DNA of 64,000 bases, taken from positions 124,001-188,000 of the forward strand of contig NZ_FOFA01000004.1 in the NCBI RefSeq assembly GCF_900110855.1, in the 5' to 3' direction. Below are positions 244-59,628 of this stretch, piece by piece. Under the pieces are notes generated by a model. The model searched no databases. It was not told where the DNA came from and saw nothing but the letters and a program-made list of their open reading frames with translations. This DNA comes from Microlunatus flavus (GTDB lineage: Bacteria; Actinomycetota; Actinomycetes; Propionibacteriales; Propionibacteriaceae). How positions within the stretch are numbered: the first letter of the stretch is position 1; each line of letters opens with the position of its first letter. A program made the position numbers and the translations under genes.

Positions 244-2247
244 CTAGCGGTCGACCAGCACCTCACCCGTGGCCATGTCGATCGCGTCGCCGGCCGGGCG
301 GGCCTCGAGCGCGGCGAGGACCGCTTGCGCGGTCTTGAGGCCGAACCCCGGCACCGCAGCGATCTCCTCGACGCTGGCGGCGCGGAGCTTCTTCAGCGAC
401 CCGAAGTGGTGCAGCAGCGCCTTGCGGCGCACCTCCCCCAGCCCGGGCACCTGGTCGAGCACGGACTCGACCATGCTCTTGCTGCGCCGCCCGCGGTGGT
501 GGGTGATGGCGAAGCGGTGCGCCTCGTCGCGGACGCGCTGGAGCAGGTAGAGGCCCTCGCTGGTCCGCGGCAGGATCACGGGGTCCTCGACGTCGGGGAG
601 CCAGACCTCCTCGAGACGCTTGGCCAGGCCGCACAGCGCCACGTCGTCGATGCCCAGCTCGTCCATGGCGGCGGCCGCCGCGGCGACCTGCGGCGGCCCG
701 CCGTCGACGACGACGAGCTGCGGGACGTACGCGAACCGGCGCGGGGCCCCGGTCTCGGGGTCGACGAGCAGCGGCCCCTCGCCGTTCGAGCCGTCGGAGG
801 CGCCCAGCGCGGCCTTGCGGTCGTCGATCATCCGGCGGAACCGTCGGGTGATGACCTCGTGCATGGACGCGACGTCGTTCTGGCCGTCGACGCCGCGGAT
901 GACGAAGCGGCGGTACTCGCTCTTGCGCGGCAGGCCGTCCTCGAAGACGACCATCGAGGCCACGACCTCGGTGCCCTGCAGGTTGGAGATGTCGAAGCAC
1001 TCGATGCGCAGCGGCGCGCCGGGCAGCTCGAGCGCCTCCTGGATCTCCTCGAGCGCGCGGTTGCGGGTCGACAGGTCGCTGGCGCGGGTCGTCTTGTGCC
1101 GGACGAGGGCCTCGTTGGCGTTCTTGGCCACCGTCTCCATCAGCGTCCGCTTGTCGCCGCGCTGCGGGACGCGGATGTCGACGTGCGAGCCGCGGCGCTC
1201 GGTGAGCAGCTGGGTGAGCGACTCCAGCGACGTCGGCAGCGCCGGGACGAGGATCTCGCGCGGCACGGCGTCGCGGGGGTCGGGCTCGTCGTCGCTCTCC
1301 GCGTAGAGCTGCAGGAGGAACTGCTCGACGAGCTCGGGCGTGCCCTCCTCGTCGAACCGGTCGGCCACCCAGCCGCGCTCGCCGCGGATGCGGCCGCCCC
1401 GGACGTGGAAGATCTGCACGGCGACCTCGAGCGGGTCCTCGGCCACGGCGATGACGTCGGCGTCGGTCCCGTCGGCGAACACGACCGCGTTGCGCTCGAG
1501 CGCGCGCTGCATGGCCTGCAGGTCGTCGCGCAGCCGGGCCGCCCGCTCGAAGTCGAGCTCGGCGCTGGCGGCCTTCATCTGCCGCTCGATCTGGCGGATC
1601 ATCGGCGTCGCCTGGCCCGCCATGAACTGGCAGAAGTCGTCGACGATGTCGCGGTGCTCCTCCGGGGTCACCTTGCCGACGCAGGGCGCGGAGCACTTGT
1701 CGATGTAGCCGAGCAGGCAGGGCCGGCCGAGCAGCTGGTGGTTGCGGAACACGCCGGGCCGGCACGAGCGCATCGGGAACACCCGCAGGAGCAGGTCGAC
1801 GGTCTCGCGGATCGCCCAGGCGTGGCTGTACGGGCCGAAGTAGCGGTTGCCCTTGCGCTTGGCCCCGCGCCCGACCATCACCCGCGGGAACTCCTCGGAC
1901 AGCGTCACCGCCATCCACGGGTACGACTTGTCGTCGCGGTACTTCACGTTGAAGCGCGGGTCGTACTCCTTGATCCAGGAGTACTCCAGCTGCAGCGACT
2001 CGACCTCGGTCTGGACGACCGTCCACTCGACCTTGGCGGCCGTCGTCACCATCTGCCGGGTGCGCTCGTGCAGGTTGCGCGGGTCGGCGAAGTAGGAGTT
2101 CAGCCGCTGGCGCAGGCTCTTGGCCTTGCCGACGTAGATGACGCGGCCGTTCTCGTCGGAGAAGCGGTAGACGCCGGGCTGCTCGGGGATCGATCCAGGT
2201 GCCGGTCGGTAGGACAGCGGCGCGCGCCGCGTACGGGTTCCAGGCAC
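244..2247 (-). CDS. uvrC: UvrABC excinuclease subunit C
   Basis: Nucleotide excision repair nuclease that makes the 3' and 5' incisions around UvrB-bound lesions in the cytoplasm. The 667-residue protein has the family order: an N-terminal GIY-YIG nuclease (residues about 20-100, with [20 protein letters not shown]), a UVR motif near 205-240 ([14 protein letters not shown]) that contacts UvrB, the RNase H-like UvrC nuclease domain (about 370-540), and a C-terminal helix-hairpin-helix pair ([17 protein letters not shown], then [13 protein letters not shown]). The GTG start at 2247 lies 7 nt after a TAACCT -10 box, so the mRNA is probably leaderless, and the promoter is of the DNA-damage type also seen at uvrA and uvrB. 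Length is normal and no defects are seen. Confidence 0.97.
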
Positions 2248-2254
2248 GCGCCCC

Positions 2255-2280
2255 AGGTTAGGTCGCGGCCCCGACAGTTC
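2255..2280 (-). promoter_or_regulatory. RecA-NDp/PafBC-type promoter of uvrC
   Basis: Minus strand reads GAACTGTCGGGG (2280-2269), exactly 8 nt, then TAACCT (2260-2255), then 7 nt to the GTG. This matches the mycobacterial RecA-NDp pattern TTGTCRGTG-N8-TANNNT at the TGTCRG core and at the spacing. The same arrangement precedes uvrA and uvrB in this window. Confidence 0.75.
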
Positions 2281-4872: not shown

Positions 4873-7962
<3,090 letters not shown>

Positions 7963-7969
7963 GGACGAC

Positions 7970-7995
7970 AGAGTAGATGTGGACACCGACAGTTC
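7970..7995 (-). promoter_or_regulatory. RecA-NDp/PafBC-type promoter of uvrA
   Basis: Minus strand GAACTGTCGGTG (7995-7984), 8 nt, TACTCT (7975-7970), then 7 nt to GTG 7962. TGTCGGTG-N8-TACTCT is an essentially exact fit to the RecA-NDp consensus. Confidence 0.8.
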
Positions 7996-14958: not shown

Positions 14959-14990
14959 GGGAACCTCTCGAAGTGTCGGCGACGGACTGC

Positions 14991-15025
14991 TAACGTCCGC
15001 GCCGGAGCCTAGAGCATACGTATGC
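14991..15025 (+). promoter_or_regulatory. Aldehyde dehydrogenase promoter and palindromic operator
   Basis: A TAACGT -10 (14991-14996) is followed by the perfect 12-bp palindrome GCATACGTATGC (15014-15025). The palindrome lies just downstream of the expected start of transcription and 16 nt before the ATG at 15042. A TetR- or MarR-type repressor bound here would block the aldehyde dehydrogenase gene and could affect the divergent dehydrogenase. No regulator gene is adjacent. Confidence 0.5.
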
Positions 15026-57496: not shown

Positions 57497-59596
<2,100 letters not shown>

Positions 59597-59602
59597 GCGT
59601 CG

Positions 59603-59628
59603 AGCCTACTGACGGCCTCTGACAGTTC
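59603..59628 (-). promoter_or_regulatory. RecA-NDp/PafBC-type promoter of uvrB
   Basis: Minus strand GAACTGTCAGAG (59628-59617), 8 nt, TAGGCT (59608-59603), 6 nt to ATG 59596. Same architecture as at uvrC and uvrA. Confidence 0.8.

Follow-up and report, generated by a model that had tools for sequence, protein, structure and literature searches.

A candidate PafBC (RecA-NDp) promoter at uvrA, uvrB and uvrC of Microlunatus flavus, and a probable regulon on mostly leaderless mRNAs

The genes uvrA, uvrB and uvrC, which lie within a single 64-kb stretch of the Microlunatus flavus genome (analysed whole and called the window here), are each preceded by a sequence that, judged from motif and position, is very likely a PafBC-dependent promoter of the RecA-NDp type. 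The best reading of the genome as a whole is that it has a PafBC (RecA-NDp) regulon carried on mostly leaderless mRNAs, in which case nucleotide-excision repair in this little-studied family is probably driven by a LexA-independent PafBC route. The uvr promoters belong to a known promoter kind, and UvrABC has already been reported as a PafBC target: the M. smegmatis PafBC regulon is described as including the UvrABC complex, with uvrA and uvrC in the SOS regulon too (PMC8223512).

Table 1. Predicted promoter elements and genes at the three uvr loci of the window
Feature	Position	Strand	Context
uvrC promoter box TGTCGGGG, PafB-type	2269..2276	(-)	preceding GAAC at 2277-2280
uvrC -10 element TAACCT	2255..2260	(-)	8 nt after box; predicted transcript start 2247
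uvrC gene	244..2247	(-)	GTG at 2247, 7 nt past -10 element; from ORF list and NCBIfam
uvrA promoter box TGTCGGTG, PafB-type	7984..7991	(-)	preceding GAAC at 7992-7995
uvrA -10 element TACTCT	7970..7975	(-)	8 nt after box; predicted transcript start 7962
uvrA gene	4873..7962	(-)	GTG at 7962, 7 nt past -10 element; from NCBIfam and relatives' alignment
uvrB promoter box TGTCAGAG, PafB-type	59617..59624	(-)	preceding GAAC at 59625-59628
uvrB -10 element TAGGCT	59603..59608	(-)	8 nt after box; predicted transcript start 59596
uvrB gene	57497..59596	(-)	ATG at 59596, 6 nt past -10 element; from ORF list, NCBIfam and uvrB loci

Ahead of each gene the minus strand reads GAACTGTCRGNG, with TANNNT following after exactly 8 nt and the start codon 6-7 nt further on, just as the first-pass annotation of this DNA had claimed. 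The strict pattern, TGTCRGNG-N8-TANNNT, matches only three times in both strands of the 64 kb, and all three matches lie before uvrC, uvrA and uvrB, whose products are identified as such by NCBIfam equivalog models. A chance origin of the three sites, which the annotation had already considered unlikely, was tried and rejected. Shuffled versions of the window contain a mean of 0.05 matches, and 0 of 100 shuffles had three. Moreover, in the genome assembly containing the window (4.79 Mb, 26 contigs) the strict pattern has 42 copies and the reversed pattern none, which bears out the prediction that further genes would carry the motif. When the spacer was varied from 4 to 14 nt, 42 matches were found at 8 nt against 5 at the ten other spacings together, so that about 0.5 false sites are to be expected per spacing. 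One of these five off-spacing matches, TGTCGGCG-N9-TAACGT, falls in the window at 14974-14996 on the plus strand and is probably due to chance. On the same strand, the ORFs preceding uvrC and uvrA have their stops at 2293 and 8017, respectively, and, provided that both are genes, the uvrC and uvrA promoters occupy gaps of about 45-55 nt. For uvrA, a mechanical ORF list puts the start at 7986, within the motif. This start was rejected, since the promoter would then fall inside the gene and the relatives' alignments give it no support; they begin at about codon 5-10 of the ORF that starts at 7962, and GTG 7962 is therefore favoured.

The genome-wide set is rich in genes of DNA metabolism. Downstream genes were typed with Pfam and NCBIfam at 41 of the 42 sites, one DUF222-like ORF (L006) that is truncated by a contig end being left out of the family scan. 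Replication and repair account for 18 of the 42: uvrA, uvrB, uvrC, recA, ligA, xseA, DNA polymerase III alpha, a priA-like gene, radA, a uvrD-like helicase, a recC-like gene, polA, a Y-family polymerase, dnaB, an AlkZ-like glycosylase, two SNF2 helicases, and one exonuclease/helicase. An AP_endonuc_2 protein is a possible nineteenth, though ambiguous. The others include pup, the proteasome activator Bpa, an ECF sigma factor with a SnoaL-like domain, three DinB/mycothiol-transferase-like proteins, DUF222 proteins, a CBASS effector, two ABC ATPases, DapD, and small families. Two long ORFs at sites (L249 and L253) have no family match in Pfam or NCBIfam, and sites L001 and L027 have no convincing downstream gene. 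One strict site (L256:1415-1760, contig C15) is flanked by two tRNA genes and by what looks like a broken HNH endonuclease gene. As for the motif itself, Gamulin 2004 is said to be the source of RecA-NDp. The base preceding TGTC is C at 34 of the 42 genomic sites, and the full GAAC prefix seen at all three uvr boxes occurs at 13; on that count GAAC was rejected as part of the core motif and is taken as a preference outside it.

That prefix bears on the question of LexA. The genome encodes LexA, and with GAAC preceding all three boxes the uvr sites could be read as members of a LexA SOS regulon, the GAAC of GAACTGTC serving as a LexA half-box. We regard this as very unlikely. The 64-kb window contains no strict GAACN4GTTC box, and even with up to 2 mismatches allowed CGAACN4GTTCG is missing near the three uvr promoters. 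Clear boxes did turn up in that search at lexA, at the Y-family polymerase gene, and at uvrA of four relatives. A LexA box at the three uvr genes was thus tried and discarded, and these results argue for the LexA-independence that the annotation had proposed for uvrA, uvrB and uvrC. At lexA, two tandem GAACN4GTTC boxes lie about 0.5 kb upstream of the match to its DNA-binding domain (L136). At the Y-family polymerase gene (L025, C13:275534) a strict PafBC-type site is joined by a LexA box directly past the -10 element, and the gene is likely under dual control.

Genes for PafB and PafC can be recognized in this genome. Two tandem WYL genes on C17 match the PafB and PafC chains of 7p5x, the M. 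smegmatis PafB/PafC structure solved with RNA polymerase, at 4e-59 and 5e-52, and one of the pair has an HTH_PafC domain. A hit to the HTH_PafC family is by itself weak, since the family also matches in 5 of 14 control genomes, in 3 of them over the cut-off. The pair lies about 4.5 kb from pafA on the same contig, and dop and pup are on C9. In M. smegmatis, binding of single-stranded DNA (ssDNA) is reported to need four arginines, R211 and R214 of PafB and R201 and R204 of PafC; by positions counted by hand on the alignment, these correspond here to Lys, Arg, Arg and Arg, with Lys in place of PafB R211. Because the genome has eight WYL-domain matches, one might suppose that a different WYL regulator, and not PafBC, reads the box. 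This is highly improbable, given that PafB and PafC are identified as the C17 tandem pair, that the comparison with PafBC covered that pair, and that RecA-NDp is the published PafBC motif (PMC6789036). With the sharp optimum at 8 nt, the 42 copies in the genome, the repair-rich gene set and the genes for PafB and PafC all pointing the same way, the annotation's assignment of the sites to the RecA-NDp/PafBC pattern is upheld. Extrapolating from M. smegmatis, damage would yield ssDNA, which would be bound by the WYL domains of a heterodimer of PafB and PafC; PafB would then read TGTCRGNG at about -26 while PafC would hold region 4 of sigma-A, and the housekeeping polymerase could thereby use a promoter whose -10 element is TANNNT and which lacks a -35 element. 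With the start codon taken as an assumed +1, the box would extend from -28/-29 to -21/-22, which would agree with the -26 motif that PafB is reported to contact in the published complex (PMC11804915).

At uvrC, uvrA and uvrB the -10 element ends 6-7 nt before the ATG or GTG, which leaves no room for a Shine-Dalgarno sequence, and it is this distance that makes the start codon the predicted transcript start. The first base of each start codon is thus probably where transcription begins, which would make the uvrA, uvrB and uvrC mRNAs leaderless. Genome-wide, 28 of the 42 sites have an ORF start (14 ATG, 14 GTG) 6-7 nt past TANNNT, and two more have one at 9 nt. The yardstick came from another 464-kb sample of this genome's DNA, where codon usage gave 401 genes; of the 225 that lead a unit, 44 show an ATG or GTG in frame 6-7 nt after a TANNNT. 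The contrast with the 28 of 42 has a Fisher p of 4e-9, in a comparison that is not fully even because the regulon set was chosen to contain TANNNT and the background was not. The background would be about 26% if some three quarters of promoters have TANNNT, the reported shares being 73% in M. tuberculosis (PMC3898074) and 79% in P. acnes (PMC3848588). Across 147 genomes of the order there are 4843 strict sites against 295 for the reversed pattern, and RTG follows at 6-7 nt after 2964 (61%) of the strict sites, against 19 of the reversed; among the four families the share runs from 57 to 66%. On these positions, the annotation's proposal of leaderless uvr transcripts is strongly favoured. Longer predicted leaders occur at recA (74 nt), at pup (27 nt to ATG), and at the CBASS operon (40 nt), where AGGAAGGAG stands ahead of the ATG.

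Leaderless mRNAs are reported to occur in P. acnes (PMC3848588), and in M. tuberculosis 26% of genes with a primary start are said to be leaderless, with TANNNT centred 7-12 nt before the start (PMC3898074). A TANNNT close upstream of the start is thus common to the leaderless mRNAs of actinobacteria and the uvr sites. The leaderless set of P. acnes is reported to have no functional enrichment (PMC3848588), whereas here one putative damage regulon is strongly enriched: the PafBC-type regulon is tied to leaderless starts both in this genome and through the order, in the proportions given above. The P. acnes transcript study posed the question of whether leaderless translation is correlated with the stress response (PMC3848588), and the regulon offers a ready test set for it. 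Within the open-licence literature, we found no paper that by its title treats leaderless mRNAs, DNA damage and PafBC together.

Both promoter and placement recur among relatives, and the two can part. The closest uvrB relatives are Propionibacteriaceae, the top one 86% identical. Across the class, 66 of 80 uvrB loci have the strict motif upstream, 64 of them at 6-7 nt from the start and the other two at 8 and 105 nt. TANNNT at 6-7 nt is retained by 10 of the 14 loci that lack the motif. For uvrC (best 30 of 38 matching genomes), the strict motif is present in 18 of 30 loci, always at 6-7 nt, and all 12 loci that lack it retain TANNNT-6/7-RTG. The tight placement of TANNNT and the TGTC motif are therefore separable. 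That placement is kept without the TGTC box in some relatives, and that TANNNT 6-7 nt before a start is common in the M. flavus genome (the 44 of 225 unit-leading genes above), would fit ordinary, constitutive sigma-A promoters in which the TGTC box is a weak -35 substitute and damage control plays no part. We consider such a reading unlikely, because the distance from box to TANNNT is fixed at 8 nt genome-wide (the 42 against 5 noted above), because the box marks a repair-rich gene set, and because the vegetative promoters of P. acnes are reported to carry a different element, GnTTnG at about -36 (PMC3848588).

At uvrA, PafBC-type promoters recur with a different geometry. Among the best 30 of 38 matching genomes, 24 of 30 uvrA loci have the motif. 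It is near the start in M. flavus and two congeners (7, 8 and 7 nt to GTG) and lies 49-197 nt before the matched residues in the other 21. The tight placement that the annotation noted at the uvrA start is confined, among the loci examined, to the organism's own genus and is not general. Of the six uvrA loci without the strict motif in that sample, two have near-matches and four (L171, L172, L182 and L187) have a LexA box and no PafBC-type motif; no LexA box was found in the stretches searched at the 24 motif-bearing loci (Fisher p = 5e-4). From these sequences, control of uvrA seems to alternate between PafBC and LexA from one relative to another, and since the four LexA-box loci all belong to one genus (f2, g184), this may represent one single switch. 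A PafBC-type promoter on pup is not conserved, being present in only 2 of 30 loci (best 30 of 45 matching genomes). All 12 Propionibacteriaceae sampled from other genera have PafC and no pup match. In M. flavus, pup (L011/L219, C9:327785) lies after dop and has its own strict site, which is common to one congener.

On a wider scale, a sample of the phylum includes 25 genomes that belong to the class, and these contain 949 strict sites against 67 reversed (hand count). Outside the class, in the same sample and without totals, most genomes look like their own controls, with some exceptions (family f16). All 147 genomes of the order have PafC over the cut-off, and so loss of PafC and loss of the motif cannot be compared there. 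One of them, G315, has PafC (1.2e-38) and 0 strict motifs in the whole genome, and several g171 genomes have motif counts near those of the reversed-pattern controls.

The closest known counterpart is the mycobacterial RecA-NDp/PafBC regulon, which as described (PMC8223512) agrees with the present one in motif, spacing, -10 element and the presence of PafB and PafC, and whose targets include recA and UvrABC, genes that carry the motif here too. It differs in that Microlunatus belongs to another family of the class and in that pafB-pafC here lie about 4.5 kb away from pafA. Placement also differs in the one mapped case of Rv1955 in M. tuberculosis, whose start codon is reported to lie about 50 nt past the transcript start (PMC2897130); here two thirds of sites have theirs 6-7 nt past TANNNT. 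RecA-NDp is reported to extend to other Actinobacteria (PMC8223512). In Streptomyces it has been described at recA and at SCO6735, the latter UV-inducible (PMC5087735), and those promoters are of the same type as the uvr sites. In a 2022 study, an initial search is reported to have found the M. smegmatis PafBC motif not conserved in S. venezuelae (PMC9380542). In contrast, strict motifs at 6-7 nt from uvrB in 5 of 5 named Streptomyces loci (L073, L076, L094, L106 and L107) suggest that the promoter type is present in that genus.

The same promoter form is abundant in certain viral sequences. When viral contigs were scanned for the promoter in a stringent form followed by ATG, at least 120 stretches matched, against 24 for the reversed form. 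The 120 loci analysed contain 334 strict sites, 206 of them beyond the 128 of the scan itself, and 12 reversed; 24 control viral loci contain 0 strict sites. Because loci selected by pattern are biased, a second set of 80 viral loci (1.32 Mb) was chosen by homology to a GP88-family protein (Pfam GP88). It holds 209 strict sites against 2 reversed, with at least one site in 67 of the 80 loci and 194 of the 209 sites on one strand relative to the GP88 gene; removal of six loci that contain the scan pattern leaves 152 strict sites in 74 loci. Between these phage sites and the first ATG ORF the most frequent distances are 6 nt (33 sites) and 22-33 nt, and 28 sites have no ATG ORF within 60 nt. Spacings of 13 and 14 nt are also raised in the phage loci (40 and 53 matches), which we guess to be a product of A+T-rich sequence past the -10 element. 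The loci are on low-GC viral contigs (L267-L386 and L411-L490), the densest array having 15 strict sites in 13 kb (L289). The array-bearing contigs are taken to be actinophages because the 371 records of the GP88 protein in cultured phages are nearly all from Mycobacterium (270) or Streptomyces (99) phages. Such arrays are not common to actinophages in general, since four cultured relatives have no strict site in the stretches read, which were 14.3 kb from mycobacteriophage Trixie and, for three Streptomyces phages, the first 20 kb each. Neither PafB nor PafC was found at E 0.01 in 200 partial phage loci.

The CBASS effector among the downstream genes leads to a related question. The M. flavus CBASS pair (L258:2430-4974, contig C12) comprises an HNH-SAVED effector and an oligonucleotide cyclase, and the strict site precedes the SAVED gene, the first of the two. 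Six further actinobacterial plasmid CBASS loci were compared, plasmids that by length and identity seemed to be copies (two from Curtobacterium, one from R. qingshengii) being left out. A Curtobacterium plasmid has a strict site between divergent genes, and the R. fascians (leaderless), Arthrobacter and R. qingshengii plasmid loci have one-mismatch sites in the right place and on the right strand. Strict or one-mismatch promoters are thus present at L258, L260, L261, L263 and L264, and no such promoter was found at the Streptomyces and R. pyridinivorans loci (2 of the 7). The loosened pattern occurs in these loci at 7.6e-5 per strand-base, hits included, and since it was loosened after the data had been seen, the CBASS promoters are to be taken as a lead only. 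According to a 2023 paper, no WYL factor regulating phage defence in Actinobacteria had yet been described (PMC10693628). We tentatively raise the possibility, which we would not yet call probable, that actinobacteria and their phages, as adversaries, share PafBC as a point of control, with phage genes and CBASS defence alike answering to it. Phages of low-GC actinobacteria would carry PafBC-type arrays through which host PafBC, activated by ssDNA during infection, would fire phage genes, and some actinobacterial CBASS operons, using the same promoter, would be armed by the same ssDNA signal. If phage arrays and CBASS promoters are both driven by PafBC, one DNA-damage activator would serve phage and anti-phage genes. 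At L264, the integrase adjoining CBASS also has a strict PafBC-type promoter in leaderless position.
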